Under the pieces are notes generated by a model. It had not been told where the DNA came from. It made no database searches and worked only from the letters and a program-made list of their open reading frames with translations. Positions 22,175 through 54,286 of a stretch of 62,698 nucleotides of DNA are shown one piece after another; within the stretch, counting starts at the first letter, position 1, and every line of letters begins with the position of its first letter. The position numbers and the translations under genes were made by a program. Source of the DNA: a virus; IMG/VR virus record IMGVR_UViG_3300025913_000005, positions 1 through 62,698 of that record. One strand, 5' to 3'.

Positions 22175-22963
22175 CTATTCCAGCACGAACTCGCAGGGGC
22201 CAGCGTGCATCAGCTTCGCGCTCACCGGGATATCGGGCACGTCACCTTGCACCATATGACGATATCGGTCTTCTGCATGGTTGTTCGGATCGATCGCGTT
22301 ATACCATGCATACTTGCGCAGCCGGTCGGCCTTGTAGTTATAGCCCAGGTGCAGAATAGGCGCGCGCTCGATTGTCGCGTGCGCGTGGTGCAGCAGCTGC
22401 TGCGGGATTGACGAGCAGTGGAAGTTTCCACCCCATGGCGTCGCCTGAAACCGGAACGCCGAATTAAACAGCCGAAAGACTGAAGGCCTCGCGAAGGTTC
22501 GATAAACACCATCGACGCGCACGCGCCTCTGTCCAGGAACGCGCAGCAGCGACATATCCGAATCCCACAGATAGCGAATAGGCAGCTTGAAAGCGTGAGC
22601 GCTGGTTGCTTCCAGCGTTGCAGCGATCGCAGCCTGACCACCTTCTGCGAGCAGTTCGTCGCCGTCGAAGTGAATCGCCCAGTAAGGCGAGCGCTCGTTT
22701 CCCCGCAAGTGAATATCAGACACGTTTTGCATAACGCGCCCCAACAGCAGATCCTTATCGCGCGTTTCGTCGAGGCCATGAAAGTCTGAACGAATGACCG
22801 TTATGCGCGGGTCTAGCTGCTCTGCCAGTTCAGGCGTACCATCCTTGGAATGGTCGTCGAGTACGAATATGCGCTCACAGATCGGTAAGTATGATCGAAG
22901 TACTTCCGCTATCCAGCGCGATTCGTCCTTGATCCTTGTCATCCCGTAAATTATCATTGGCAT
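22175..22963 (-). CDS. Glycosyltransferase, family 2-like (262 aa)
   Basis: N-terminal Rossmann-type start (M-T-R-I-K-D-E-S-R-W), D36-D37-H in F-V-L-D-D-H-S-K-D-G-T, and a D-x-D-type metal site in H-F-D-G-D-E (about residues 98-103). GT-A fold sugar transfer from a nucleotide sugar is expected. The first 89 bases overlap the end of the next gene in a different frame. It is one of four glycosyltransferase-like genes in the cassette. Acceptor unknown; DNA, capsule-like or virion glycan are possible. Confidence 0.82.
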   Translation of the reverse strand: MPMIIYGMTRIKDESRWIAEVLRSYLPICERIFVLDDHSKDGTPELAEQLDPRITVIRSDFHGLDETRDKDLLLGRVMQNVSDIHLRGNERSPYWAIHFDGDELLAEGGQAAIAATLEATSAHAFKLPIRYLWDSDMSLLRVPGQRRVRVDGVYRTFARPSVFRLFNSAFRFQATPWGGNFHCSSIPQQLLHHAHATIERAPILHLGYNYKADRLRKYAWYNAIDPNNHAEDRYRHMVQGDVPDIPVSAKLMHAGPCEFVLE

Positions 22964-23390
22964 CCTCGACTTTGATTAGAGTAAAAAGGCTGTGCGGGTC
23001 TTCATTGCCAGCCATGTCGTAAACCTCGATCACGCGTTGAAGCGTATCAGAGGGGCACATCTTGTCTTCGTAGTGGTACCGCAGATTACTGGCGCGCTCT
23101 TCGTCATCTATCGCCTTGTCTGGCTCGAAGCGATAGCCATCGACTGTAACCACGAAAGGCCCCTTAACCGCCAGCGTAACGACAGTAGGCACCTCGCGCC
23201 CGCCAGTAGGCGTGCAGTCGATTTCCTCAGGCGAGATCACATGCAGGTCGAACTCGGCGCCACACTCGCGCCTGTGGCAATACCAGCGCGTCTTCGTGCC
23301 TGCAGGAAGATGGCTAACAGAACTCTGCCCCAGGCCGCACGTGGGGCAGTGGATGTATCGCTGATCGTCGGCAAAAGGTTTCTGAATCAT
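22875..23390 (-). CDS. Zinc-ribbon protein (171 aa)
   Basis: Residues about 15-50 have C-P-T-C-G...C-H-R-R-E-C-G, a zinc-ribbon. The rest is a beta-rich module with a strongly acidic linker (E-D-A-N-D-N-L-R-D-D-K-D). Function unknown. Its end overlaps the glycosyltransferase start by 89 bases in another frame. Confidence 0.6.
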   Translation of the reverse strand: MIQKPFADDQRYIHCPTCGLGQSSVSHLPAGTKTRWYCHRRECGAEFDLHVISPEEIDCTPTGGREVPTVVTLAVKGPFVVTVDGYRFEPDKAIDDEERASNLRYHYEDKMCPSDTLQRVIEVYDMAGNEDPHSLFTLIKVEDANDNLRDDKDQGRIALDSGSTSIILTDL

Positions 23391-24304
23391 ATAATGCGAT
23401 TTCTATAAAACCCGCTGAACCGTGGAACCTTTATCAAGTCGTATTCTCGCCCGTCGATCTTCACGACTTCTGGATTAGCGTTTAGCTCAGGCATGCGCTG
23501 CTTCCAGTACTCTTCGAGGTACAGCGCGTTAGGTGGCCAGTCCTCAAAACGGGTGACGTTTGCAGAGTGATAGTTGAAATTTTTCCCGTTGAAATATCGG
23601 TTATGCTTGTTCACCCAGTTAACGACGCCTCGGTTAATGCGCTCGGTGCTCGCTGCATCGTTCGTGGCTGTCGCCTTGTGGTCGCAGCGAACCTCAGGCA
23701 CTGCCGCGCACTTCCAGCCCGCCATGCGCACGCGCTGGCATACGTCGGCTTCCTCCTGGTGGCCCAGCCGATCATCGAACACGCTAGCAGGCTGCGCCAT
23801 CCTTCCCTCGAACATCATCAGCATGCTAGGGTCTGTTCGTAAATCGGTCGCACACATCCGGTTCATGATCCAGCAGAAGCCGCAGGCCCAGAGCACTTCT
23901 TTGTACGGTCCTCGATCAACCTGATACGCGCCATCGTTCGGAAAGATGAGGCCTATTTCGTGGAAGCGGTCGAGGTAGGAGCAGAGCGTTTCGTCCCATC
24001 CTGGCGTGAGCACTTCAGCGTCGTTATCGAGGTAGGCGATATATTCGGTCATGCTGTTAGCCAAGATCACATTGCAGGCGCCAGCATACCCGACGTTTCG
24101 ATCATTCCAGACAGGCAGAAAGCGCGAATCGCGCGCGGCTATTCGACAGATTGCCTCTTTCGTAAGCTCGTCGCCCGCGCTCGGGTTGTGAACGATGTAG
24201 CATTGGAAATCTGTAACGCTGTTCTTGATGAGCGCTGCCAGCGTGCGCTCCAGCTGCTGCCAGTTCCTGCCGTAGCTGGCGATTCCGATATCTAGTCTGC
24301 GCAC
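23387..24304 (-). CDS. Glycosyltransferase, family 2-like (305 aa)
   Basis: N terminus R-L-D-I-G-I-A-S-Y-G-R-N-W, N-x-G-Y-A-G-A-C-N and A-Y-L-D-N-D-A-E-V (D93 and D95 metal site), then G-H-Q-E-E-A-D-V-C-Q-R-V-R-M-A-G-W, the usual E-D-D-like region of GT2 enzymes. Central C-G-F-C-W-I-M-N-R region is characteristic. Overlaps neighbours by a few bases. Second of the four. Confidence 0.88.
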   Translation of the reverse strand: MRRLDIGIASYGRNWQQLERTLAALIKNSVTDFQCYIVHNPSAGDELTKEAICRIAARDSRFLPVWNDRNVGYAGACNVILANSMTEYIAYLDNDAEVLTPGWDETLCSYLDRFHEIGLIFPNDGAYQVDRGPYKEVLWACGFCWIMNRMCATDLRTDPSMLMMFEGRMAQPASVFDDRLGHQEEADVCQRVRMAGWKCAAVPEVRCDHKATATNDAASTERINRGVVNWVNKHNRYFNGKNFNYHSANVTRFEDWPPNALYLEEYWKQRMPELNANPEVVKIDGREYDLIKVPRFSGFYRNRII

Positions 24305-24543
24305 GCTTCCTCCTCGACTGGCTCGCCATCGCTGCCTACCCTGACAGGATTCGGCATCGCGTCTTTCGCCAAAAGCTTTCCGCAGTGCGGCAAAAGCTCT
24401 GCCTCGTTCTCGACAGGCGCGACGATCGTTAGTAGCTCGAAGTGCGAATCCCCGCTTACCTCCGGCAGATGCAGCATGTACGTTCCGACGTGCCGCTCGC
24501 CTTCAGGCCGGTGCTTATCTACGATCGATATTCCGATAATCAT
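24292..24543 (-). CDS. Hypothetical protein (83 aa)
   Basis: Beta-rich start (M-I-I-G-I-S-I-V-D), acidic tail, no known motif. Start overlaps the stop of the next gene by ATGA; end overlaps the glycosyltransferase start. Confidence 0.55.
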   Translation of the reverse strand: MIIGISIVDKHRPEGERHVGTYMLHLPEVSGDSHFELLTIVAPVENEAELLPHCGKLLAKDAMPNPVRVGSDGEPVEEEACAD

Positions 24544-24941
24544 ATTACGGGCTCCTCGTTAACGCCCATCTTCGCGAAGAGCGCTTGCGCTTCGGCATCC
24601 CATTCGCGAGAGCTTTCTGCAGCCGCTGCTGCGTACCACTGCTTCAGCAGCCATACTTCGTGAAAGGTTAGCGAAGGAATCGCACAGATCCTTTCCTCGT
24701 CTTCCTCGCTGAAGGTGCTGGCATTTAATTCAACGCCACCTATTTCTTCCAGGCCGTCTAGCAGCTCGTCGATAAGGTCAGCGTTGGCGAAGCCCGCCCA
24801 GTAGATGCGCACAGCGTTTCCAGGCTTCCCGCTATCGATCAGGAAGCGGGTCGTGCCTGTAGGCAGCAAGCCCTTATCGGTCAGCCTTTGAACCAGACTG
24901 GTATTCATAAGCGGCATAAATTTTCTTTTGCTTTCGCTCAT
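24540..24941 (-). CDS. Hypothetical protein (133 aa)
   Basis: N-terminal V-Q-R-L-T-D-K-G-L-L and a central D-E-L-L-D-G-L-E-E-I-G region, then a tryptophan-containing helical end. No family recognised. Overlaps both neighbours. Confidence 0.55.
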   Translation of the reverse strand: MSESKRKFMPLMNTSLVQRLTDKGLLPTGTTRFLIDSGKPGNAVRIYWAGFANADLIDELLDGLEEIGGVELNASTFSEEDEERICAIPSLTFHEVWLLKQWYAAAAAESSREWDAEAQALFAKMGVNEEPVI

Positions 24942-25411
24942 TGCACTTTAGGCTTGATGCCCCTCTCTTTCCAGGTGTAGCAGTTGAGTTCAGCGACGAC
25001 GCTATAGGCGCGCCACATCCCGCCAGGAAGCGAATCGCACAGCACCAGCATAGGCTCGCTCTCTCCCGCGACTGGCGAAGGGATCAGCGCCGAGTCGTAA
25101 TAGTGCAGCGCCTGCCCAATCGCATGCAGCGCTTCGAGCACGCGCAGGTCTGATATCCCTACAGGTATCAGCTCGTGAGAGCGCAGCATGTCGATATTCT
25201 GCAGGTCGCGCCATTCAGTTACGTCGCGATAACGCGGCGGCCACTTCAGACCGCCAGCGCCGTATGGCTCGCTCAGCGTGGCGAATAGATGGTCGGTCCT
25301 CCGCGCGAATAGCCCGACTCGAAACTTCTGGCAGAAGACATGAATGTCGTTCACGCAAGCGAGCGCTTTGTCGCGATCGTCTGAAAGCGGCTTGATGACT
25401 GGGTTAGGCAT
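24938..25411 (-). CDS. Hypothetical protein (157 aa)
   Basis: ATG at 25411 preferred; it overlaps the end of the next gene by 8 bases. It contains H-V-F-C-Q-K-F-R-V-G-L-F-A-R-R, P-S-P-V-A-G-E-S-E-P and W-R-A-Y-S-V-V. No known family. Confidence 0.55.
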   Translation of the reverse strand: MPNPVIKPLSDDRDKALACVNDIHVFCQKFRVGLFARRTDHLFATLSEPYGAGGLKWPPRYRDVTEWRDLQNIDMLRSHELIPVGISDLRVLEALHAIGQALHYYDSALIPSPVAGESEPMLVLCDSLPGGMWRAYSVVAELNCYTWKERGIKPKVQ

Positions 25412-25676
25412 TTTCGACAGGCTTATGGTAGTCGCGTACGGTTTCGGTTGTGACGCCATCGATACGAACCTGCGTAGCGATCTCGATCTTATGCTTTTCG
25501 CAGTACAGATTAGCTCCGAAGCGATTCCAGCCTTCAGGAACTGCGTGGACTACGCTTAATTCGATTTGGCCGTCTGGTCGCTTAGACGAGTGAGTAATAG
25601 GATCTACATCTACAGTTGCGCCAGCGCCGCAGGCTGCGCAGATGTACCGCGCATAGTATTTAGGGGCAGCAGTCAT
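25404..25676 (-). CDS. Zinc-ribbon-like small protein (90 aa)
   Basis: ATG 25676 (overlapping the upstream gene stop) gives M-T-A-A-P-K-Y-Y-A...C-A-A-C-G-A-G-A...C-E-K-H, a small zinc ribbon. Function unknown. Confidence 0.58.
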   Translation of the reverse strand: MTAAPKYYARYICAACGAGATVDVDPITHSSKRPDGQIELSVVHAVPEGWNRFGANLYCEKHKIEIATQVRIDGVTTETVRDYHKPVENA

Positions 25677-25945
25677 CGAATCGCCTCCGTCCACAGAAAC
25701 GCTATCGACCACCAGCCCTCAGGCTTGCCGTTGTAGCAGTGATGGCGCAGTGCGTAAGATTTATTTCCAACGTCGAGGCGATTATGCAGGTCGACAATGT
25801 TCGCAACAGAATCCTGCAGCGCCGACGAGTGATTGATAACTACGCCGTACACTTGCCGCCCAGGTTGAACCATCTTGCCGCTTCGAGAGGCGTGCTGCAG
25901 CGCATCCATAAAAGCCTGCAGGCAGAAAGGCTGATCCCATTTCAT
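25673..25945 (-). CDS. Hypothetical protein (90 aa)
   Basis: ATG 25945 overlaps the methyltransferase stop (ATGA). The peptide has P-F-C-L-Q-A-F-M-D-A-L...G-V-V-I-N-H-S-S-A-L-Q and a tryptophan pair near the end. No family recognised. Confidence 0.55.
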   Translation of the reverse strand: MKWDQPFCLQAFMDALQHASRSGKMVQPGRQVYGVVINHSSALQDSVANIVDLHNRLDVGNKSYALRHHCYNGKPEGWWSIAFLWTEAIR

Positions 25946-26673
25946 GCAGGCTTGCGCCACCAGTTGCTGGTGCCCTCCTGAACGAAGCCGATATCGAGCA
26001 TCAGCGGTCCATAGTCTTTCTCGAAACGGTCGTTTCGCTCCAGGTGCATAGGCATTCCGCCATCAGGCCCGCTGCCGATCCCAAACGCATTCTGGCCCAG
26101 GAACCAGCCTCCAGGCTTTAGCGTCGTAAAGATCGCGCGCAGCCAGTCTTCGACTGCCAGAACGTGCTCAAGGAAGTCGAGCGAAACTATCGCGTCGAAA
26201 AGAGCTTCGCACTGCGCCAGCGCCTGCTTCGGCTCGTCGAACTGAAATAGGAATTCGCAGTTCCGTATTGCCATGCGCATAGTAGCGAAGTCTGCTGTGC
26301 GACTATTCGGCATGTCGTGGTAGGTCGAGGAAAATCCATCCTCGTGCAGCTTGATGTGCAGGTCGCCGATGCCATCACCCAGGCAGAGCACAGAATGCAC
26401 GCCTTTCGCGCGCAGGCCTTCGCTCACGCCTGCGATCATGCCCATATAGTTAAAGCCCCTATCCAGGTGATACGCGCTCAGCTCCCAGATGTAGGCGTCA
26501 GTCTGCCGGTACCACTGCAGAATGTCCTCGTCTGTTTGCGGGTTAACGCGCCGCCAGTCTTCGCTCACGCGCTCGTGATGAAAGCCGAAGCCCTTCGTTA
26601 GGTGATTCAGCGCGTCTGCTTCTGGCATGTCAAAATACATTGCCAGCTCTTTTGCTCGCTCTTGTGCTGTCAT
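25942..26673 (-). CDS. Class I SAM-dependent methyltransferase (243 aa)
   Basis: With ATG at 26673 (TAATG overlap) the SAM motif I is V-L-C-L-G-D-G-I-G-D-L (about 95-105) and motif IV-like F-D-A-I-V-S-L-D-F-L-E-H-V (about 159-171) is followed by L-K-P-G-G-W-F-L-G. It is the general SAM-methyltransferase fold. The substrate is not visible from the sequence; methylation of a sugar, of a base or of another glycan part are all open. It sits in the glycosyltransferase cassette. Confidence 0.85.
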   Translation of the reverse strand: MTAQERAKELAMYFDMPEADALNHLTKGFGFHHERVSEDWRRVNPQTDEDILQWYRQTDAYIWELSAYHLDRGFNYMGMIAGVSEGLRAKGVHSVLCLGDGIGDLHIKLHEDGFSSTYHDMPNSRTADFATMRMAIRNCEFLFQFDEPKQALAQCEALFDAIVSLDFLEHVLAVEDWLRAIFTTLKPGGWFLGQNAFGIGSGPDGGMPMHLERNDRFEKDYGPLMLDIGFVQEGTSNWWRKPA

Positions 26674-26885
26674 TATTCCTCGTACGGAGTGCAGAGTCTT
26701 AATACCTTCTCGCCAATCTCTGCCCATGCCTCATCTGTGCATGGGATTTCATCAGCTATTGACCACCATTCGTGCTCGTCGCCTTCCAGCTCCCCGAACA
26801 TGGGATTAGTGCCCCACCATGCGATAGTCCAGTCGCCACCGTACTCGTCTTCGTGGCGTACCCAATAGAATCCAGGCTCGCGCAT
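26673..26885 (-). CDS. Small Trp-rich protein (70 aa)
   Basis: ATG at 26885, one base after the stop of the membrane peptide. Sequence begins M-R-E-P-G-F-Y-W-V-R with several aromatic residues (W-T-I-A-W-W-G) and an acidic end. The pattern resembles small phage proteins with P-G-F-Y-W-V-R/K starts. Function unknown. Confidence 0.58.
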   Translation of the reverse strand: MREPGFYWVRHEDEYGGDWTIAWWGTNPMFGELEGDEHEWWSIADEIPCTDEAWAEIGEKVLRLCTPYEE

Positions 26886-26886
26886 T

Positions 26887-27048
26887 TCAGTTATCGCTCG
26901 CCTGCGCCGCAACGAATACAGCAGCGCATACAGCAGCGCCTCCGCAGATTCCAGCAACTACCTCCCACTCTTTGGCCGCTCCGTATCCGCAGCCGAATGC
27001 AAGCGCGAGTATGATAATCAGCCAGCCAGATATCCCCGCGAAATTCAT
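26887..27048 (-). CDS. Small membrane protein (53 aa)
   Basis: Frame from ATG 27048 (TAATG overlap with the SDR gene stop) to TGA at 26887. Residues 8-22 are hydrophobic (W-L-I-I-I-L-A-L-A-F) and a second hydrophobic run is at about 30-47 with three cysteines. Likely two transmembrane helices. Function unknown. Confidence 0.65.
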   Translation of the reverse strand: MNFAGISGWLIIILALAFGCGYGAAKEWEVVAGICGGAAVCAAVFVAAQASDN

Positions 27049-27962
27049 TAGCCGCGCGCCTCATATTCCGCTCTACAGCGCTCCAGGCTTTCGACGATAT
27101 CGGCGAAAGATCCCTCGCCTGCATACGTCGTATCGATTGGTCGAGGCGCAAGCCCCTCGAAGGAATCGTGGCTCACCGGCTCGACGTTCAAATCAGGCCG
27201 CAGGTAGCTGGCGAGAATATGCCGGTTCGTACGAAATGGTATGCCTACGTGAACTGGCGCGCACAGCGGGCCAGCAAGCACCGACTGCCAGAGAGTATGC
27301 GCGACCTGCCATGCAAACGACACGCTAAACCAGCGATCAGCAACCTGTCGCATAGCTGCGACCGTCTCGCCTTCGGCAACTACCTTGACTGGTGCCAGCA
27401 TCTGCTCGATTGGATTCTCTCGCCCAATGATGATCTTGCGCACGCCTAGAACGAAGGTCGGGCGTACGATTGTCCAATAGCCCGCTCCGCTCGTCATGAC
27501 TTCAGACTCGGCATGTAGTTTCTGCAGGCCGTACTGATTGACCGGCATGCGTGGCGACGTTGGCGAGTACGGCGCGCTGAAGGAAGCCATCATGCGCGGG
27601 TCTTTGATGCCTTCAGGCATTCCGCCGAAGACAGCCTGAGAACTCACCTGCACGAAGTGCTTTTTATTGAATCGGCAATAGTGCGCGAGGAAAGCAGGAA
27701 CCTCGACATTCACTAGCCGGTAAGCCTGCGGCGCGCGCTCGACCACATCAGGCCTGTTTTCGCCTGCAAGATTGATGATCGCATCAGGCTGCACCTTTTC
27801 GAGGCATTCGGCGAGCGCAGTACTGTCAGCCATATTCAGCGCTCGATAGCCCCAGGCCTCGTTGCCGTGCCTGCGCGTATAGACTGCCTCGATATCAGCA
27901 GGCTGCTGCGCCATCAAATGCTGCCCAATAATTCCGCCCGCTCCGATCACTAAGACCTTCAT
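27048..27962 (-). CDS. NAD-dependent epimerase/reductase, extended SDR (304 aa)
   Basis: N terminus M-K-V-L-V-I-G-A-G-G-I-I-G (G7, G9/G10, G13 nucleotide site) and catalytic Y144-x-x-x-K148 with S107/S108 upstream. This is the RmlD/dTDP-4-dehydrorhamnose reductase-like SDR type. It would act on nucleotide-linked sugars and fits with four glycosyltransferases in the same string. Product sugar is not predictable. Confidence 0.82.
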   Translation of the reverse strand: MKVLVIGAGGIIGQHLMAQQPADIEAVYTRRHGNEAWGYRALNMADSTALAECLEKVQPDAIINLAGENRPDVVERAPQAYRLVNVEVPAFLAHYCRFNKKHFVQVSSQAVFGGMPEGIKDPRMMASFSAPYSPTSPRMPVNQYGLQKLHAESEVMTSGAGYWTIVRPTFVLGVRKIIIGRENPIEQMLAPVKVVAEGETVAAMRQVADRWFSVSFAWQVAHTLWQSVLAGPLCAPVHVGIPFRTNRHILASYLRPDLNVEPVSHDSFEGLAPRPIDTTYAGEGSFADIVESLERCRAEYEARG

Positions 27963-28291
27963 AACTTATCCAGCTCCCCTTCGATCCATTCACGCTGTTT
28001 TATCAGCAACGCCTTGCGGTCAAGCCCGCGCTCTTTCAGAAGCGCTCGCCCCGCATCGGTAATGGCATATAGCGCGCAGTCGCCGGTATAGCCCATGCCT
28101 TCGTGCGTTCCTTCTTTCGTGCGCACGAGCAGGCCTTCGTCGCACATAGTCTGCAGCCAGCCTGGATCGCTGAAGGTCCATATCCAGCACCAGAGCGGCG
28201 CCAGATTCTCTGCCTCTATGCGCTCCTCGGTTTGAAGGATCATCAGCTTTCGATCTTCAGGAACCGGAGTCGGCTTAATCCGCTTGCTCAT
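27959..28291 (-). CDS. Small winged-helix-like protein (110 aa)
   Basis: A region with L-Q-T-M-C-D-E-G-L-L-V-R-T-K-E-G, Y-A-I-T-D-A-G-R-A-L-L resembles the recognition helix and wing of MarR/PadR-type or other small winged-helix proteins (D-A-G-R-A-L-L is typical). Start and end overlap neighbours by 4 bases. It could be a regulator of the cassette, but no operator is visible. Confidence 0.5.
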   Translation of the reverse strand: MSKRIKPTPVPEDRKLMILQTEERIEAENLAPLWCWIWTFSDPGWLQTMCDEGLLVRTKEGTHEGMGYTGDCALYAITDAGRALLKERGLDRKALLIKQREWIEGELDKL

Positions 28292-29097
28292 TTCAGGCGC
28301 GCCTCAATCTGCTTTCGATAGTCGGGGTCTTGCGGATTCGGAGGCATGCCCCACTTCGCGCGCAGAAGGCGGTGGTTAGGCCAGATGTCGCCTGCAGCTG
28401 TAGGCAGGCCTCGAAACGTGCTCTGCAGGCTGCTGTGGTCGACGAAGCAGCCATCGTGAACGGCAACGCGCAGGCCTGCTGCCTCGACCTGCATGCAGAA
28501 GTCGCGATCGTCAGAGCCGTATGCCGTGTATCGCTCGTCTAGGCCGTACGTAAAGCGAGGATCGAGCAGCGCCTGATTGCTCAATATCTCAAGCGTGCGG
28601 CGCGGGATGTAGACGCAGACGAAGGCGATATGCTCGACGAAGCGCAGGCCCACCGAATCATCGAACTTTGGCGACTTCAAATCTACGAAGCGGCGATGCT
28701 GCAGAGGCTGGCCTGTCAGGTCAGTAGTTGCACCAATGCAGCCTATTGTCGGCTCTTCGATGCAGACCTGCTCCAGCAGGCTGAACCCGCCAGGAGACGT
28801 TAGCAGCGCGTCGTCGTTCAGGATTACGTAGCCTGTCGGCGGTTCTCTTTTTTTATCCCATCCGCGAAACCAGACATCAGCTGCCAGGATGCCCCAGTTA
28901 ACGTTGCGCGCATAGACGAATGGCTTATGGCCGGAAACGATATTGATACGCTGGCAGAACTTCGCCTGATCGATTCCCTGCTGGTCGAGGCCATCATCTA
29001 CGATCACTATCGGGCAGGTTGGCTCGTGCTTTCGCAGCGCTGTCAGGCACGGTATCAGGTTCGATGCGGTCTTCGTCGGTATGATTACTGCGAACAT
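28288..29097 (-). CDS. Glycosyltransferase, family 2-like (269 aa)
   Basis: V-I-V-D-D-G (D34-D35) and V-I-L-N-D-D-A-L-L-T (D95-D96) followed by G-F-S-L-L-E are GT2 metal-site features; a later S-D-D-R-D-F-C-M-Q-V-E-A-A-G-L is the typical E/D-D-x-D-F region. Third glycosyltransferase of the cassette. Confidence 0.82.
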   Translation of the reverse strand: MFAVIIPTKTASNLIPCLTALRKHEPTCPIVIVDDGLDQQGIDQAKFCQRINIVSGHKPFVYARNVNWGILAADVWFRGWDKKREPPTGYVILNDDALLTSPGGFSLLEQVCIEEPTIGCIGATTDLTGQPLQHRRFVDLKSPKFDDSVGLRFVEHIAFVCVYIPRRTLEILSNQALLDPRFTYGLDERYTAYGSDDRDFCMQVEAAGLRVAVHDGCFVDHSSLQSTFRGLPTAAGDIWPNHRLLRAKWGMPPNPQDPDYRKQIEARLK

Positions 29098-29369
29098 GGC
29101 ACCTCCTGCCCAGGCTTAGAGTCTTTGAGTTTCCAGACATGCCTTCCATCTGAATGCCATGCGCCATCAAGCGATTCGGGGACTTCCTCTTGAATGCCGA
29201 ACCAAAATTCTGCGCGGGCATTCGATATCAATCTGCACATGGCTGCAATTTCGTCGACCGTTCTGGCCTTTTGCCACCAACGTGCCCGCATGAATGCTTC
29301 AAACGAATTCTCTAATCGAGTGAAGTATTCAAACCTAACAGCGCTCGCTCGCGAAAGCCTGAATTTCAT
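29085..29369 (-). CDS. Hypothetical protein (94 aa)
   Basis: Helical start rich in Arg and Phe (R-F-E-Y-F-T-R-L-E-N-S-F), then a tryptophan-rich end. Overlaps the methyltransferase stop and the glycosyltransferase start. No family recognised. Confidence 0.5.
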   Translation of the reverse strand: MKFRLSRASAVRFEYFTRLENSFEAFMRARWWQKARTVDEIAAMCRLISNARAEFWFGIQEEVPESLDGAWHSDGRHVWKLKDSKPGQEVPCSQ

Positions 29370-29923
29370 TTCACGGCCTCCAGCACTGCTCGAATCTTGT
29401 AAACCTGCTCGCGGGGGTCTTCTCCGTTAGACGGATGCTCTGTCAGCGCCAGCACCTTAAAGCGCGCCGTGATTCCGTACGCATCGCCTAAGCGCTCGCG
29501 AGCGAACGCGCCATGCTCGAAGTATTTGAACGTCGACAGGCAGTAAGGCGAAACGTGCGTAGGATCTTGGAAGTAACCGACGCCTTTCGCCGCATTCGGC
29601 GTTTCGATCGTCGCTCGCCCGCCAGGAATCAGGACGCGATGCAATTCGTTCATGAAATGGATTCGGCCTGACGTCCATCTTCGATTCATCAAAGGCCCGA
29701 GTGCCGTATTCTTTACGTGATACTCGCGAATCGCATCAGGGATATGCTCGCAGACGTCGTAAGCCAGGATATCCTCGACCATCGAATCAGACCACGGCCA
29801 CTGCTCTGAAAGGTCTACTCTGCGCGCTTCTACTGCGCCGCATACAGCGCAAGGCTGCGGTGCAATGTCGACGCAGGTGTAACCGTCTATGTGGCGATCG
29901 CTCGCGCCGAGATTTATTTTCAT
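29366..29923 (-). CDS. Class I SAM-dependent methyltransferase-like protein (185 aa)
   Basis: Starts M-K-I-N-L-G-A-S-D-R, has a D-V-C-E-H-I-P region and a late L-I-P-G-G-R-A-T-I-E-T-P, as in small phage methyltransferases of type 11. The SAM motif is shortened at the very N terminus. Together with the 25942 gene it is the second methyltransferase of the cassette. Substrate unknown. Confidence 0.75.
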   Translation of the reverse strand: MKINLGASDRHIDGYTCVDIAPQPCAVCGAVEARRVDLSEQWPWSDSMVEDILAYDVCEHIPDAIREYHVKNTALGPLMNRRWTSGRIHFMNELHRVLIPGGRATIETPNAAKGVGYFQDPTHVSPYCLSTFKYFEHGAFARERLGDAYGITARFKVLALTEHPSNGEDPREQVYKIRAVLEAVK

Positions 29924-30144
29924 ATCCCGAAGCCTCGCGTTAGGAAATCTTTCGAGACGAACTTTCCGTATACGCAGCTACCCTGCCGGTGCGCGATGCG
30001 GATATTGCGCAGCTTGATAGCGCCAGGACTGCGAGGGTGCAGCGGCTTTGGCTTAACGCGCCCTCCAAGCTCTGCCTCGGCTGGCTTACCGCACCAGCAG
30101 GTACGATCTGCCGTCAGGTGATTCTTGCTGCATAGTCTTATCAT
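29920..30144 (-). CDS. Small zinc-ribbon protein (74 aa)
   Basis: Begins with C-S-K-N-H...C-W-C-G-K, a two-cysteine-pair site, then basic tail. Function unknown. Overlaps neighbours. Confidence 0.5.
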   Translation of the reverse strand: MIRLCSKNHLTADRTCWCGKPAEAELGGRVKPKPLHPRSPGAIKLRNIRIAHRQGSCVYGKFVSKDFLTRGFGI

Positions 30145-30398
30145 TTCTTCCTTTTCGCCTTTCGCTTTTTAGCTGGGATAGAGGCTGCAGAGATACCTTT
30201 CGAGATCAGGCTGTACACATGGCTAAACCTGTGCGCATCTGCGCATCCCGCGAAGTGGCTCAGCATCGGAGGCGAGCATTTCAGCATCGCCCCCTTGCAG
30301 CAGATGCATCTCTCGTTAAACACCTCAGGCTGCAGCACTCTGTAAACTTCTTCTAGCGCCGCGCGCTCTATGCGCACCGTTCGCGATGGTAGCCTCAT
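30141..30398 (-). CDS. Small zinc-binding protein (85 aa)
   Basis: ATG at 30398 overlaps the stop of the glycosyltransferase by ATGA. The peptide has C-I-C-C-K-G...C-S-P-P-M...C-A-D-A-H, and ends with a strongly basic K-K-R-K-A-K-R-K-K. Zinc- and nucleic-acid-binding features. Function unknown. Confidence 0.55.
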   Translation of the reverse strand: MRLPSRTVRIERAALEEVYRVLQPEVFNERCICCKGAMLKCSPPMLSHFAGCADAHRFSHVYSLISKGISAASIPAKKRKAKRKK

Positions 30399-31270
30399 AG
30401 CGCCATCACTGTTTTGCAAAAGCTGTCCCATTCAGGCACGCGCCGATAAGGGCCTGCAGGATTGTGAAGGTTGATCGAATAGCCGAGCATCTGCGTATTG
30501 CCGCCGTGGATGCTGGCTACCATGCGAGCCTCGTAACCATCCTGCATCAGGTATCGCTTTAGCAGCTGCAGGCGCGCGTCGTCCCGAACGCTCGATACTG
30601 CCTTAATCTCAAGCCCGCTCTGCCAGCAGATGTCTTCGCAGGCAGATTGAGAATTGCCGACTTCGGGCAGGTGCGGGAAGGTCTTGCGCTCCCACGTCTG
30701 GCGCCAGTACATCAGCGTCGTTCCTGGAACGTTCAGGCGCGATGGGCGCGAGAACAGATAGGCCTCGTTAACGTATCCCTCGACCGACTCGCCCTGATTC
30801 GCATATGGATAGCCTGGGATTTCGAGCACCTGCGTTTCGCTGTTACGATCGCGCCTGCCAACGTACTTGCGCGAATCCCAGAAAAGCAGATCGCTGTATC
30901 CGACCGCATCAGCGCCAGAGGCCTGGAGTAGCGCGACCTGCTCAGCAATACGCTGCGGCCCGCTCCAGTCGTCATCGTCGAAGTGAACGAAGATATCGGG
31001 CTTGCCGAGCGGCGTAACATCCATCATTCCGAGCGCGAGGTTTCGCAGTTCGCCGATAGATACCTGCTCGACAGGCTTATCGTTTACCTGGAGCACGTAC
31101 CAGACGGTTTCGTTATGATCAGCGCGCAGGCCGCATGGCTGCTTTCCGCTGTCGAGGATAAATAGCACTTTGTTCTGGTACGTCTGCGACCTGAAGCTGC
31201 GCACTGCGCGCTGCAGCATTTCAGGACGGTCGCGCGTCAAGCACAACGCAGCCACTAATGGATCTTTCAT
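30395..31270 (-). CDS. Glycosyltransferase, family 2-like (291 aa)
   Basis: Opening A-A-L-C-L-T-R-D-R-P-E-M-L-Q-R, then H-F-D-D-D-D-W (97-102) as the D-x-D metal site, and C-E-D-I-C-W-Q near residue 222, as in GT2 enzymes. Fourth glycosyltransferase and the first gene of the cassette as transcribed. A ribosome site AAAGG precedes its ATG at 31270. Confidence 0.86.
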   Translation of the reverse strand: MKDPLVAALCLTRDRPEMLQRAVRSFRSQTYQNKVLFILDSGKQPCGLRADHNETVWYVLQVNDKPVEQVSIGELRNLALGMMDVTPLGKPDIFVHFDDDDWSGPQRIAEQVALLQASGADAVGYSDLLFWDSRKYVGRRDRNSETQVLEIPGYPYANQGESVEGYVNEAYLFSRPSRLNVPGTTLMYWRQTWERKTFPHLPEVGNSQSACEDICWQSGLEIKAVSSVRDDARLQLLKRYLMQDGYEARMVASIHGGNTQMLGYSINLHNPAGPYRRVPEWDSFCKTVMAL

Positions 31271-34061: not shown

Positions 34062-34763
34062 TCAGTAGGGGCTAATCTGCGGCGGTTCGCCACGGTTAGC
34101 AGCCTTGATCGCGTTCAGCACCTGCAGCGCCTGCATGCTGATGATCTGTGAAGCGGTCCATATGCCAATCGCCAGCGCGAGCACTAAATCGTCGTGATCG
34201 GCCTCGCGCCACGCCTCGAAGGATTCATGCCCGCTCGCGCTGATCTTCGCGCGAAACTTCCCCATTTCCTCAGTAAGCAGCGCTGCGTGCGGCAGGCCCT
34301 TTGCAATGCGCAGCACGCGATTCTGCACGCAGAGCTGCGCGCCTGCGACGAGATCGCGCTTTGGCACGTTGTAATCCTGCTGGCCGGTCATCTGCACGTT
34401 AGCGCCGCCTGTGATCGTTATCCCGATCGGTGTCAGCTCTTCAAAGTGCTCGATCACGCCTCGCCCGACACCGGTCTTATCGACTGCTAGGTATCGAGGC
34501 GTAGGAACCTTCAGCATGCGCAGGCGCGTCTGATGCGCAATGCCGGTATACTTCGTCTGCAGCTCGAAGCGCTCGACGTGCCGCACGTCGACCTGCGCCA
34601 GGGGCATCATCTCGACAGGACGCTTAACTGTGACCGGCAGGCCTGTCTCGTGGTCGCGCCCCTGATACGTCACCATGCGGCGCGCGCCGCTCACCTCTGC
34701 GATTATCAGCGCCGAGTGATCGTGCGCCTGCCCCAAGTCGAGAGCGCTAACGTAGATGCTCAT
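34062..34763 (-). CDS. terL: Large terminase subunit, nuclease part (233 aa)
   Basis: Starts M-S-I-Y-V-S-A-L-D-L-G-Q-A-H-D-H-S-A, the typical first strand of the RNase H-fold terminase nuclease (D9), with D95 in Y-L-A-V-D-K-T-G-V-G and D191-D192 in A-D-H-D-D-L-V-L-A-L-A. These acidic residues coordinate metal in packaging nucleases. There is no ATPase domain: it is in the upstream gene that overlaps by ATGA. Splitting lies precisely in the interdomain linker. Confidence 0.88.
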   Translation of the reverse strand: MSIYVSALDLGQAHDHSALIIAEVSGARRMVTYQGRDHETGLPVTVKRPVEMMPLAQVDVRHVERFELQTKYTGIAHQTRLRMLKVPTPRYLAVDKTGVGRGVIEHFEELTPIGITITGGANVQMTGQQDYNVPKRDLVAGAQLCVQNRVLRIAKGLPHAALLTEEMGKFRAKISASGHESFEAWREADHDDLVLALAIGIWTASQIISMQALQVLNAIKAANRGEPPQISPY

Positions 34764-35554
34764 TGAAATAGCGGCGTTACGCCGTTGTCCTCCAGTCCAG
34801 GCGTTTTGAAAAGCGGTTCAACATCTTCGCTCATTGCAGCCTGGATATCCTCGTATCGGAATACCGAGTCTAGCGTATCGCTGAATTCGCACATGTACTC
34901 CTGGCGAAAGACCGAATCAGGCAGCGAGAGCTTTTCGCCAGCGAGGAAGGCAGGCGTGATGCGCGGGCATTCAGTGGCGCGAATCATAACGCGATTCCAG
35001 CCACTTCCCTCGGTCCATTCCTTATGGAAAAACCCGCGCTTACCCCAAGGCGTCGACAGTACGCAGAGCTTACCCTTGCTAACCGAAAGCATCGGGCGAA
35101 CCGCGTTATAGAGCGAATCAGGAACGCGCGAGGCCTCGTCTATGATCGCGAGCGCCACAGATGAAAACCCGCGCACGTTCTGCTCTTTTCCTGGCAGCGC
35201 GATAATCTCAGATCCAGACGCGAAACCCATCTGCAGCGTCGAATCTGTTTCCTCGATCGCGCTGGAACCAAAGCCGAGCTTTTCCTTGATCTCTGAAACC
35301 TTCTCCAGCAAGAGCTTCGATTGCCGCTCTGAAGGCGAAAGGATCAGCGTTAGAGACGGCGCATAGTACAGAGCCTTATGCAGCGCTTTGCAGGCAATCA
35401 CGCTAGACTTCCCACCCTGGCGCGTGCAGTTTAGCAGGTGGTTGATATCGTCGCGGCGCAGTACGTCGGCTTGCCAAGGATCAGGCGCGTACCCCGCGCG
35501 CACCATCATCTGCGCAGGGTCGAGCGCGATCGCCATCTCAGCCGACAGAGGCAT
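34760..35554 (-). CDS. terL: Large terminase subunit, ATPase part (264 aa)
   Basis: Walker A in C-T-R-Q-G-G-K-S-S (43-51), Walker B in L-A-I-I-D-E-A-S (D139-E140) and the coupling motif S-T-P-W-G (about 165) identify the packaging motor ATPase. It ends after a short linker with a stop at 34760 which overlaps the next ATG. The two halves would assemble into a functional motor as separate chains. Its ATG at 35554 overlaps the small terminase by 17 bases. Confidence 0.9.
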   Translation of the reverse strand: MPLSAEMAIALDPAQMMVRAGYAPDPWQADVLRRDDINHLLNCTRQGGKSSVIACKALHKALYYAPSLTLILSPSERQSKLLLEKVSEIKEKLGFGSSAIEETDSTLQMGFASGSEIIALPGKEQNVRGFSSVALAIIDEASRVPDSLYNAVRPMLSVSKGKLCVLSTPWGKRGFFHKEWTEGSGWNRVMIRATECPRITPAFLAGEKLSLPDSVFRQEYMCEFSDTLDSVFRYEDIQAAMSEDVEPLFKTPGLEDNGVTPLFQ

Positions 35555-36041
35555 CTGTCTTTCCTGCGATCATCAGCTTTTCTGCGATCTTCAGCCGCTC
35601 TTCTGGCGGATAGTCGCCGAGCGCGAGCATAAGCGTCTGGCGCATTTCGGTTAGCTTGAGCGGCGCGCCATCGGGCCCAGAGTGCTCGATCGCTCTGCGC
35701 TCCATCCAGCCTGCCTTGCATTTCATCCAGAAGCAGATCGCGCCCAGGTCGCCTGCCTGAATTTTCGTAAGCAGCTTTCCCATCGCTATTCCGGTAATCT
35801 CGCTCTGCGTGATTGCCAGCTCGTCAGAGAATTTCTTCGCCAGCGTCTTATCGGAAACTTTGATAATGCGCGCGATCATCTTCTGCGGAACGCCAGACGC
35901 AGAAAGAGCGCGCACCTTCTGGCGCTGCTCCTCGGTTACTTCAACCTTCGGCCTGCCAGGACCGTCACGCTTCGGCGGGGGCGGTACTGGTGGCGGCGCG
36001 TTCTGAATCTTTTCCCGTATCTTGCTTCGCATCGTTCTCAA
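35538..36041 (-). CDS. terS: Small terminase subunit (167 aa)
   Basis: N-terminal proline-rich basic segment, then a helix-turn-helix like R-Q-K-V-R-A-L-S-A-S-G-V-P-Q-K-M-I-A-R-I-I (about residues 41-62) as in small terminases, and a helical oligomerisation region with G-I-A-M-G-K-L-L. It lies immediately before the large terminase. The start could also be ATG 36032. It overlaps the end of the ParB-TAGT gene by 77 bases. Confidence 0.8.
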   Translation of the reverse strand: MRTMRSKIREKIQNAPPPVPPPPKRDGPGRPKVEVTEEQRQKVRALSASGVPQKMIARIIKVSDKTLAKKFSDELAITQSEITGIAMGKLLTKIQAGDLGAICFWMKCKAGWMERRAIEHSGPDGAPLKLTEMRQTLMLALGDYPPEERLKIAEKLMIAGKTDASVG

Positions 36042-37485
36042 ACACCATGCCGTACTCGTCGACGCCTTCCGGCACTTCGCACCCAGGCTTCAGGATAAAC
36101 TTATTTGCTCGAAACGGTCGATAATCTACGTGGTGCTGCCACCTGCCCCACTTCTGCACGACGGTTGTAACGTCGGGGTGCTGCTCCTGCAGCGAGCGCG
36201 CCATCAGCAGGCGCCCGTCGCCTTGGTACAGCTCGTCAGTGTTGCCGCCTTTCATAACCATCGTAGTCATTTTGTCAGCGAGGAAAGCGTTAAACAGCAC
36301 CGTGCAGTACCCCTGCTTTAGAGCTCGGAGCGACAAGTCGGTGTCTTCGTTGTAGCGGCCACGCCAACGAAACGGTATCGCGTTATCGATCAGGATGCAG
36401 GAGTATATGCGCGTGTTCGGGACGAAAGGCGGCAGCTTCTGCTTTTGCTTCGCGAGGTACTGATAGTTCATGCCAGCGAGCGCAACGTTTGCGTACCGGT
36501 CGACGTAATCCTCGACAGCGCGAAATGTGATGCCTGTCGCCATCGGCACCTTGAAATTATTCACGAGCCGATAGAAGCGCCTGATGTTGTCGTCGAGAAT
36601 CCAGTGGCGCGCGTGGCCTTCGCTTAGCGAGTGCTCCCATACCCAATTGCGCGCAGGTATCGAGCCTTGGCCCAGATTCGAGAACGGCAGCACGAGGATC
36701 TTCGCAGGATCGATAACGCTGGCGTATTGCTCGTACTCCTGCGGCTCGATCACGATGCGATAAGGGACCTTGATATTCTCGAGGGCCTTGCTGGTCAGGC
36801 GCGACTCCCACCTGCTCTTAGAAATCACATAAACCGGATAGCGCGTATCGACTTGTTCAGTCGAAAACCGTACGCTCGTATGGTCCTGGTTTTCCTGCTT
36901 CGGGTACCAAACGTACTTCGTCTTATCGGTCAGCGTTTGCCCTAGCAGCGCGCTGAACTTATCGCGATCCTCTGCGCAGGTGAAATGCACGCGCACGGTC
37001 TGCCACGCCAGCAGATCCTCCTGGCCGAATTCTGGCATTCCATTCCAGTCTGGAGCTGCAGCCTCGCCTTCAGTCGAGAATCCCCAATCAGCGCCGAACT
37101 CGAAGGAATCGAACCCGGTAAGCTTCAGATCGAAGTTTGCCGCCTTCAGGTCCATAAACTCAGCAGACAGCGCCTCGATATCCCAGTCTGCCCAGGATAC
37201 AGACCGGTTCACCATGAGGCGAAAGGCGCGCACCTGCTCAGGCGTCCAGGAATCGCAAACGATTACAGGAACCTCCTGCAGGCCCATCTTCAGCGCAGCT
37301 TTCAGGCGCAGGTGGCCGTCGATTACCTCGCCGTCGCTCTTCGCGAGCACAGGCACGGCAAAGCCATACTCTGTAATGCTCGCGACCATCTGCGCGACTG
37401 CCTTATCGTTTTTGCGGGGGTTGCGTTCGTAAGGCTTTAGGCGATCAATCGCCCACATCTGAATCTGCAGAGCTAATGCTGTCAC
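35965..37485 (-). CDS. ParB-domain / TAGT-type glycosyltransferase fusion (506 aa)
   Basis: Residues about 10-90 are a ParB N-terminal-like (nuclease/CTPase superfamily) domain with R-N-P-R-K-N-D (21-27) and D-G-E-V-I-D-G-H-L-R-L-K (51-62). From about 215 the sequence is that of the TET/JBP-associated glycosyltransferase (TAGT) family: P-V-Y-V-I-S-K-S-R-W, S-I-P-A-R-N-W-V-W-E-H-S, W-I-L-D-D-N-I (D298-D299-N300), F-R-W-R-G-R-Y-N-E-D-T-D-L. TAGT enzymes are known to add sugars to hydroxylated bases in phage DNA; the ParB domain may bring the enzyme to DNA. No TET/JBP oxygenase or hydroxymethylase was recognised here. Acidic-to-basic tail overlaps terS. Confidence 0.82.
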   Translation of the reverse strand: MTALALQIQMWAIDRLKPYERNPRKNDKAVAQMVASITEYGFAVPVLAKSDGEVIDGHLRLKAALKMGLQEVPVIVCDSWTPEQVRAFRLMVNRSVSWADWDIEALSAEFMDLKAANFDLKLTGFDSFEFGADWGFSTEGEAAAPDWNGMPEFGQEDLLAWQTVRVHFTCAEDRDKFSALLGQTLTDKTKYVWYPKQENQDHTSVRFSTEQVDTRYPVYVISKSRWESRLTSKALENIKVPYRIVIEPQEYEQYASVIDPAKILVLPFSNLGQGSIPARNWVWEHSLSEGHARHWILDDNIRRFYRLVNNFKVPMATGITFRAVEDYVDRYANVALAGMNYQYLAKQKQKLPPFVPNTRIYSCILIDNAIPFRWRGRYNEDTDLSLRALKQGYCTVLFNAFLADKMTTMVMKGGNTDELYQGDGRLLMARSLQEQHPDVTTVVQKWGRWQHHVDYRPFRANKFILKPGCEVPEGVDEYGMVFENDAKQDTGKDSERAATSTAPAEA

Positions 37486-50951: not shown

Positions 50952-51065
50952 ATGCCTAAAGCAAAGATGGGAAGGCCGCGCACGGTCGCGCACATCCCTA
51001 AGTATCCGCAATGCTCCTGCACGCCATGCCGAAAGAAGCGAGCGGCAAAGAGGGCGCGGGCATGA
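50952..51065 (+). CDS. Tiny AT-hook/zinc peptide (37 aa)
   Basis: Frame from ATG 50952 to TGA 51063-51065, which overlaps the radical SAM ATG (51062). It has K-M-G-R-P-R-T (AT-hook-like), C-S-C-T-P-C and a basic tail K-K-R-A-A-K-R. A DNA-binding regulatory peptide is plausible. Confidence 0.55.
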   Translation: MPKAKMGRPRTVAHIPKYPQCSCTPCRKKRAAKRARA

Positions 51066-52030
51066 ATGTCTTGCTCGTGCAGCTGGACGGCAAGCTGCCA
51101 AATATCGCTCTAATGCGAATCGCAGCGCATCATAGAGCGCTCGGCGATTCGGTCACGCTGAAGCATGGTGGCGAGCGCGGCCTATGGGATGCAGAATGGG
51201 ACCGTGTTTATGGAAGCGCGATCTTCCTGAAGACTCGCCCTGCAGTCGAGCGCTTGCGGCGAGAATACCCGAATGCGATTATCGGCGGCACTGGCGTTGA
51301 TCTGTCGATTACGGTCGAGCAGCACGGTATCACTACGAAGGCGCAGGATTACAGCATCTATCCGAGCTTTGCGCCGTCTATCGGATTCACGCAGCGCGGC
51401 TGCAGGCTTAAGTGCTCTTTCTGCGTAGTGCCGCAGAAGGAAGGTGCTATCCGCGAAGAGCAGAGCATTTACGATCTATGGCGAGGCGAGCCGCACCCGC
51501 GCGAGCTGCACCTGCTCGATAACGATTTCTTCGGGCAGGCTCACTGGCGCGAACGTATCGCAGAGATTCGCGATGGAGGCTTTAAGGTAGCCTTCAGCCA
51601 GGGGATTAACGCGCGATGCTTAACGGAGGAAGCTGCTGACGCTATCGCCTCGGTAGACTATCGGGCAGACAATATGAAGACGCGCACGATTTACACTGCT
51701 TGGGACAATCGCGCAGACGAAGCGCAACTGTTTAACGGCCTGAAGCGATTGGTAAAGTACGGCGTAAAGCCAGACCACATCATGGTCTATATTCTCGTCG
51801 GATATTGGCCTGGAGAAACGCACAAGGACCGCGACTATCGCCGCCAACGATTGCGGGACTTCGGCGCGCGGCCCTATCCGATGCCGTTCGTTCGCACTCC
51901 TGAGCTGATCGGATTTCAGCGATGGGTTATCGGCGCTTACGATAAAACGATTCCTTGGAAGGTGTTTACTGCGGCTCGATACGAACCGCGCAATATCAAG
52001 CCAGCGGCAGAGTTCCCTCTATTCCAATGA
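51062..52030 (+). CDS. Radical SAM protein (322 aa)
   Basis: C114-R-L-K-C118-S-F-C121 is the CX3CX2C [4Fe-4S]/SAM motif; the first 95 residues look like a B12-binding-like region (M-N-V-L-L-V-Q-L-D-G-K...I-I-G-G-T-G). It could modify a base, sugar or protein; the substrate is not known. It is on the plus strand in a three-gene group behind a controllable divergent promoter. Radical SAM enzymes are often found among phage DNA-modification genes, which makes it a candidate partner for the ParB-TAGT enzyme. Confidence 0.82.
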   Translation: MNVLLVQLDGKLPNIALMRIAAHHRALGDSVTLKHGGERGLWDAEWDRVYGSAIFLKTRPAVERLRREYPNAIIGGTGVDLSITVEQHGITTKAQDYSIYPSFAPSIGFTQRGCRLKCSFCVVPQKEGAIREEQSIYDLWRGEPHPRELHLLDNDFFGQAHWRERIAEIRDGGFKVAFSQGINARCLTEEAADAIASVDYRADNMKTRTIYTAWDNRADEAQLFNGLKRLVKYGVKPDHIMVYILVGYWPGETHKDRDYRRQRLRDFGARPYPMPFVRTPELIGFQRWVIGAYDKTIPWKVFTAARYEPRNIKPAAEFPLFQ

Positions 52031-53359: not shown

Positions 53360-54286
53360 TCATTTAGGGGTATAGTCGCAGATTATCGCACCGCCTGCTG
53401 CCAACGCAGTACCGGCAATAGGCGCGAAGGTCGAGCCATCATATGTGTAGTCTACGTTCGGCGTCAGCCGAATCCCGTTCAGGTAGCAGGCCAGCGCAGA
53501 AGCTGAAACGGTAAACGTCGTGGTGCCTGGAAGGAAGCCGATTACAGGAGGCGCAGCCCAGGCTGTCTTATAGCAAGGCGGTTTGATTGTGGGATCAGCG
53601 TTAGCGCAGGTATCCAGCCCGACGATCTTTAGGAATCTTCCGGTTGGGTCGCTGTTATCTGGGAACAGATAGGTAAGGCCATTAGCTGCGAGCGTCCCGA
53701 CGTATTGAGAGTTATAACCAGATGTGAAACCGCCAGGACATGCAATCCCTCCATCGAGAGGAACACATGGCGCGAACGGATTCGCGTTTACCGGAGCAGG
53801 AATAACCTCAATCGCGCTCACGACAGCATTGCGTACGATCGTCGTGAAGATCATCGATATGCCAGCGCCTGCTGCTGCAGCTACCGTGAAGGTGCGATCA
53901 ATCGGCGTATTGAGCGGCGCCACTGCTGCCAGATCGATCGAGGGGATTACCGGCAGGCCGTTGATCGAGACGCTGAAGACACGCTGGCCTGGAGCTGTGA
54001 CCGCAGTGCTGTTTTCGATGAAATGCAGAACCACGGTATAGGTCCCATCGCTTACCGGGAACCGGTACCCGAACGATGATGCATTCGTCGCAGGATAGCG
54101 CTCGTCGCGCAGGTAGTCAGCGCCGCCTGCAGGAAGCGCGAGCGGGCTTACATAGACCTGCCCGCCGATGTAGAGCTGGTCTGCGAGATAAAGCCCCGTG
54201 GCGCTGCCACCTGCATTGATCCTGATCTGCGCTGCGAGCGGCAGCGCGCTAATTAGCAAGAATAATTCGAGTAGGCGATAGGCCAT
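53360..54286 (-). CDS. Exported malectin-like protein (308 aa)
   Basis: Hydrophobic leader (L-F-L-L-I-S-A-L-P-L-A-A-Q) with a cleavage-like A-x-A end. The mature start R-I-N-A-G-G and the series Y-I-G-G, Y-R-F-P-V-S-D-G-T-Y-T-V-V-L-H-F-I-E, V-F-S-V-S-I-N-G-L-P-V fit the malectin carbohydrate-binding domain. The second half has cysteines and no known family. Expected in periplasm or outside the cell, binding glycans. Overlaps the propeller gene by 38 bases. A host origin is likely. Confidence 0.75.
   Translation of the reverse strand: MAYRLLELFLLISALPLAAQIRINAGGSATGLYLADQLYIGGQVYVSPLALPAGGADYLRDERYPATNASSFGYRFPVSDGTYTVVLHFIENSTAVTAPGQRVFSVSINGLPVIPSIDLAAVAPLNTPIDRTFTVAAAAGAGISMIFTTIVRNAVVSAIEVIPAPVNANPFAPCVPLDGGIACPGGFTSGYNSQYVGTLAANGLTYLFPDNSDPTGRFLKIVGLDTCANADPTIKPPCYKTAWAAPPVIGFLPGTTTFTVSASALACYLNGIRLTPNVDYTYDGSTFAPIAGTALAAGGAIICDYTPK

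Follow-up and report, generated by a model that had tools for sequence, protein, structure and literature searches.

The window analysed here is a linear IMG/VR contig of 62.7 kb (62,698 nucleotides in full), and on its minus strand a single gene encodes a protein that joins three parts: a ParB/Srx-type N-terminal domain, a stretch of ~70 conserved residues that we refer to as MID, and a TET/JBP-associated glycosyltransferase (TAGT) domain. The main features of the locus are listed in Table 1. The frame is open over 506 codons, compared to a longest open run of 240 codons among 500 base shuffles, and its GC content is 0.71 at third codon positions versus 0.40 at position 2. A chance or overlapping-frame artefact was ruled out because relatives of the fusion keep 60–75% identity in unrelated contigs. 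The AlphaFold2 model of the whole protein has a mean pLDDT of 87.8 and, when searched against the PDB, matches both ParB N-domains (2.7e-6) and GT-A glycosyltransferases (1e-5).

Table 1. Features of the ParB–MID–TAGT locus, given as positions in the window.
Feature	Position	Strand	Remarks
ParB-MID-TAGT fusion protein	35965..37485	-	506 aa; GTG start overlaps the stop of the preceding ORF
ParB/Srx-type N-domain	37096..37470	-	aa 6-130; DGHLR where partition ParBs have GERR; no ParB HTH
MID domain	36850..37062	-	about aa 142-212, MPEF...KTKYVWYP; conserved with TAGT, fused or separate
TAGT glycosyltransferase domain	36046..36849	-	aa 213-480; GT-A fold
DDN, putative DxD-type nucleotide-sugar/metal motif	36586..36594	-	aa 298-300; invariant in 16 relatives
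NEDTDL motif	36334..36351	-	aa 379-384; invariant in 16 relatives
Terminase small subunit-like (TerS)	35538..36041	-	phrog_309, 2.7e-11; start codon uncertain; ORF overlaps fusion gene
Terminase large subunit (TerL), ATPase part	34760..35554	-	PF03237, 1.4e-10; phrog_7579, 1.5e-58
Probable terminase nuclease part, separate overlapping gene	34062..34763	-	phrog_27743, 7.6e-38; PF17289, 0.019, below cut-off
GT2-type glycosyltransferase	30395..31270	-	PF00535, 2.8e-5; family also downstream of terL in L005, L007, L015
GT2-like protein of cluster	28288..29097	-	conserved in L005, L015
RmlD-like nucleotide-sugar reductase/epimerase	27048..27962	-	PF04321, 6.8e-26; homologue fused to next methyltransferase in L005, L015
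SAM methyltransferase of cluster	25942..26727	-	PF13489, 1.5e-7; 51% identity in L005, L015
GT2 glycosyltransferase of cluster	23387..24304	-	PF00535, 2e-12; 54% identical in L005

The initial annotation had read a ParB N-terminal-like domain from the motifs RNPRKND (residues 21–27) and DGHLRLK (residues 56–62), and both are confirmed. The match to phrog_620, a ParB-like PHROGs family (2e-41), and the fold match to ParB N-domains together place this part in the ParB/Srx superfamily; the Pfam profile ParB_N (PF02195) fell just short, with 26.0 bits (E = 9.7e-6) against a curated cut-off of 26.3. Partition ParBs are CTPase clamps with a GERRxR CTP motif and a central HTH DNA-binding domain. The fusion has DGHLRLK instead, and among 53 ParB relatives the position of the Glu in GERR is occupied by His in 36, by Asn in 15, and by Glu in a single one. 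The Pfam scan detected no ParB HTH family in the fusion protein, where MID and TAGT come after the N-domain. Lacking the HTH domain and the GERR motif, the domain is therefore not a partition ParB.

MID matched no Pfam family in scans of the fusion and its relatives; modelled alone it reached a pTM of 0.48 (AlphaFold2), and the PDB fold search returned no match. It is fused to the TAGT in phages of Aeromonas, Tenacibaculum, and Pectobacterium, in most ParB-bearing relatives it is joined to ParB in a gene separate from the TAGT, and elsewhere it is free-standing. The TAGT-like domain first suggested behind ParB is supported by a clear match to PF20691 (E = 4.7e-41, 141.4 bits versus a cut-off of 27.5), with residues 216–414 covering the complete profile (1–205 of 205), and the invariant acidic motifs DDN and NEDTDL lie at the residues originally assigned to them, in keeping with a GT-A enzyme of this family. 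In PHROGs the C-terminal part corresponds to phrog_842 (9e-41), annotated as beta-glucosyl-HMC-alpha-glucosyltransferase.

The fusion gene had also been described as a neighbour of terS, and the TerS-like gene is indeed next to it, followed by the TerL ATPase gene. TerL (34062–35554, minus strand) apparently comes as two genes that overlap by 4 bases, one for the ATPase and one for the nuclease, each with its own PHROGs family. This second TerL piece, MID, and the glycosylation cluster at 22–31 kb were additions to the first reading of the sequence. Elsewhere in the window we found a 2220-aa protein with no PHROGs match (1461–8123, minus strand) and a protein with a malectin carbohydrate-binding domain (53360–54286, minus strand; PF11721, 2.9e-12).

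Relatives are encoded in 283 viral contig stretches, the best 80 of which were examined. They show three architectures: the fused ParB–MID–TAGT; ParB–MID and TAGT in adjacent genes with an overlap, frequently of 11 bases; and MID plus TAGT without ParB. In one locus (L070:7890-10007) a gene for an NAD-dependent nucleotide-sugar epimerase/dehydratase lies between those for MID and TAGT, which may hint that the donor sugar is a special one. Genome collections were scanned with an alignment of TAGTs only, since the mixed alignment A1 proved too divergent for this purpose. Among GTDB genomes there were 29 loci, mostly in MAGs, with the isolates Erwinia sp. OLFS4 and Pantoea stewartii also represented; the loci of these two adjoin terminase and other late phage genes, and a plasmid search revealed no plasmid copy of the Pantoea TAGT. 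At least 80% of the fusion was present in none of 50,697 phage-collection records, 24 of which contain the TAGT domain (tblastn, E ≤ 1e-3), and neither megablast of 8 kb nor a search with the full-length protein found a close relative among named phages.

The proximity to the packaging genes is not a coincidence of one record but a general property of ParB-bearing TAGTs. Considering 72 non-redundant loci with enough flanking sequence, and counting terL when located within 1.6 kb downstream of the TAGT, it was found beside 38 of the 39 ParB-bearing TAGTs versus 2 of the 33 ParB-less ones (Fisher p = 7e-17); the terL profiles were derived from the counted loci themselves, so weak terL genes may escape. 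The only ParB-bearing locus without a terL match (L063) has an adjoining TerS-like gene. Both ParB-less exceptions (L051 and L053) are short contigs with the TAGT near their upstream end, where a ParB gene may have been cut off. At least 11 changes of the ParB label are needed on the TAGT tree, with well supported branches forcing at least five of them, and an independent-pairs test on this tree gave four pairs for, none against, and one tie, too few for significance.

Many ParB-less TAGTs adjoin genes for sliding clamps, clamp loaders, and radical-SAM proteins. Fusions also occur, to DNA polymerase A (L024, L031, and L032) or to uracil-DNA glycosylase (UDG; L013, L016, and L032), and this replication context together with the fusions points to DNA as what they act on. 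The polymerase fusions run in one frame (L032:7030-10218, with the UDG in between, L031:5450-8725, and L024:7929-11573). TAGTs fall in two contexts: those with ParB belong to the packaging module, those without it mostly to the replication module, and this split provides a concrete hypothesis on where and when each of them acts. The window also encodes a radical SAM protein (51011–52030, plus strand; phrog_9298, 3e-47), which was considered as a partner and discarded, having no significant match to the radical SAM family that accompanies MID-only TAGTs and only a weak one to a different protein in L052.

The ParB of the fusion is a module shared with other effectors. Other contigs encode ParBs that share 62–70% identity with it and are fused to N6/N4 DNA methyltransferases, and on the ParB tree the TAGT, methyltransferase, and GNAT effectors are interleaved; in L002–L004 a ParB–TAGT fusion is followed by a ParB–methyltransferase whose ParB is its sister on the tree. 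The slot preceding the terminase is occupied in phages and prophages by ParB–methyltransferases, by ParB with an ATPase–GNAT-like protein, or by ParB with a TAGT. Pseudoalteromonas phage SL25 (L135:3977-5951), for example, has ParB, an unannotated ATPase–GNAT-like ORF, and then TerS and TerL. The arrangement of ParB, DNA modification, and terminase is already known from Paracoccus prophages as the ParB-Tls locus, a name given after Iyer et al. 2013 as cited in PMC6536676, where ParB also appears fused to methyltransferases and has been suggested to guide the modification of DNA while it is being packaged (PMC6536676). The window has ParB and a modifying-type enzyme directly upstream of the terminase genes, precisely this position, from which a DNA-modifying role of the fusion enzyme may be inferred.

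Targeting is not the sole role that ParB could have, since a ParB fused to a methylase has been reported to nick DNA (PMC5512222). The TAGT might then mark phage DNA and the ParB domain act as a nuclease nicking whatever is unmarked, as the nicking ParB–methylase Bce_0392 and the nuclease or NTPase activity of other ParB/Srx domains (PMC5512222) would suggest, together with the GHxR/GNxR motif that replaces the GERR of partition ParBs. However, ParB is found precisely where the packaging genes are and is absent from the TAGTs of replication modules, which speaks for location rather than for self/non-self discrimination, and the E. coli pair described below, known from its genes, is stable in chromosomes without known sugar-modified DNA. 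We find this alternative quite unlikely.

A ParB and TAGT pair is also present in Rac-type prophages of E. coli, where it passes as hypothetical protein. The gene order in the prophage of strain W is ParB (ynaK-like), TAGT, TerS, and TerL. Its TAGT (L133:5809-6741) is a widespread prophage protein annotated as hypothetical or as GREB1-related protein; of 5,426 complete E. coli genomes, 867 carry at least 80% of the length of its gene, and 1,590 have a match to the ParB part.

Between terL and the portal gene the window carries a glycosylation cluster (22175–31270, minus strand) with several GT2-type proteins, an RmlD-like protein, and methyltransferases; in L005 and L015 the homologues follow a different terL, in the same order. 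These genes may extend or decorate the sugar added by the TAGT, or act in a virion or surface glycan pathway. If the fusion itself belonged to such a pathway, it would play no part in DNA modification, and its nearness to the terminase would reflect operon order only. The conserved order of the cluster favours this, as do the Pantoea and Erwinia prophages (L106:5184-7244 and L105), with genes for MptE-like, heptosyltransferase-like (GT9), and methyltransferase proteins directly upstream of ParB–MID and TAGT. Nevertheless, most ParB–TAGT loci, that of E. coli W Rac included, have no such cluster nearby, and the fusions of TAGT to ParB, polymerase, and UDG speak against a virion or surface function, which we rate as very unlikely.

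The acceptor of the TAGT was approached through the enzymes known to form one. No TET/JBP oxygenase or base hydroxymethylase had been recognised initially, and this holds for the window and 48 related contigs: TET/JBP and the thymidylate-synthase-type hydroxymethylase family were each found in 0 of these 49 records, many of which are contig fragments and in any of which a new hydroxylase family would escape the search. As positive controls, thymidylate synthase was recovered in five of eight named TAGT phages and TET/JBP in Nonlabens phage P12024L. The window has no C5 methylase family and, among its longer ORFs, no base hydroxylase recognisable by Pfam; two Vibrio phages of ~47 kb with MID–TAGT have neither TET/JBP nor thymidylate synthase, and large phages with MID–TAGT carry thymidylate-synthase-family genes. 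The association with TET/JBP gave the TAGT family its name and is not required of each member. With so many fragments, and a new hydroxylase family liable to be missed, the absence of an acceptor-forming enzyme from the 49 records is only suggestive; as they stand, these records lack the step before glycosylation.

Three acceptors can be weighed. The sugar could go on bases that have first been hydroxymethylated, by a host enzyme or by one that escaped recognition, in the manner of T6 and the TET/JBP systems. The TAGTs with a stated DNA reaction all act on a base that is hydroxymethylated or already carries glucose (PMC13216743, PMC13390438), and the thymidylate-synthase-family genes of the large phages are also in its favour. 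The 0 of 49 records (many of them fragments), the two Vibrio phages, and the E. coli W Rac region, none of whose genes is annotated with this function, weigh against it. We consider it conceivable, if somewhat unlikely; being a narrower form of the reading that we prefer, it overlaps with it, and our probabilities do not sum to one. More doubtful is that, at the packaging stage, an unmodified base of the phage DNA itself receives the sugar, or some acceptor in it other than hydroxymethylpyrimidine; if true, hundreds of E. coli prophages would encode a DNA sugar modification that needs no prior hydroxylation. Finally, the TAGT might glycosylate the terminase, the capsid, or a host protein, ParB merely bringing it to DNA-bound complexes. 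GREB1, a TAGT relative, is reported as a protein O-GlcNAc transferase (PMC12645433), the E. coli homologues bear its label, and the searches recovered no acceptor-forming base enzyme. Yet the TAGT fusions to DNA polymerase A and UDG, the slot common to DNA methyltransferases and the ATPase–GNAT protein, and the TET/JBP and methyltransferase neighbours of the P12024L TAGT all favour DNA, and a protein acceptor appears unlikely.

Overall, we favour the fusion as a ParB-targeted, late-acting DNA glycosyltransferase of the ParB-Tls locus, with a probability of roughly 0.6. This reading is based on the TAGT and ParB folds, the coupling to terL, the polymerase and UDG fusions, the slot common with DNA methyltransferases, the E. 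coli Rac order of ParB, TAGT, TerS, and TerL, and the neighbours of the P12024L TAGT, as well as on the T6 TAGT reaction (PMC13216743) and the proposal of ParB-directed modification (PMC6536676). Against it weigh the missing acceptor-forming enzyme, the protein acceptor reported for GREB1, the nicking reported for a ParB–methylase, the non-significant pairs test, and the E. coli pair with its distant TAGT and no MID. The ParB N-domain would be a DNA- and nucleotide-binding targeting module that takes the enzyme to the concatemer readied for the terminase, where the GT-A domain would take a sugar from its nucleotide-bound donor and attach it to an acceptor in the phage DNA; MID may join the functions of both or aid substrate binding. 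The probable benefit would be that packaged DNA is shielded from restriction upon injection into the next host. TAGTs without partner glucosyltransferases, noted as an open question in 288 of 753 phage genomes (PMC13216743), are the background to this proposal. As far as the literature consulted shows, with Iyer et al. 2013 known through PMC6536676, the ParB–MID–TAGT architecture, the ParB–terminase coupling, the occurrence in E. coli, and the missing acceptor-forming enzyme are new.

Among known systems, the ParB-Tls methyltransferases share with the fusion a ParB N-domain fused to or beside a modifying enzyme directly upstream of terS and terL; the effector here is instead a TAGT with the extra MID, and Pfam finds no N6/N4 methyltransferase (PF01555) in the fusion protein or in the window. 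The E. coli Rac pair (WP_001291099.1 and WP_001204039.1) resembles it in ParB (41% identical), in TAGT (3.6e-34), and in the TerS and TerL that follow, but consists of two genes, lacks MID, and has a distant TAGT, with no more than ~26% identity to its closest counterpart in our set. The T6-type beta-glucosyl-HMC-alpha-glucosyltransferase, credited with glucosylating glucosyl-hmC in DNA (PMC13216743), belongs to the same PF20691 family and GT-A fold class; the fusion differs by its ParB and MID, by adjoining the terminase, and by a record without hydroxymethylase, and T6 is absent from the tblastn matches of its TAGT domain (E ≤ 1e-3). In P12024L the TAGT homologue (26% identity over 65% of the domain) sits between TET/JBP and DNA methyltransferase genes, whereas the window has no TET/JBP or C5-methylase. 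GREB1 is likened by annotation and description only, through the GREB1-related label of the E. coli homologues and its reported glycosyltransferase domain (PMC12645433), and differs in its protein acceptor and animal origin.
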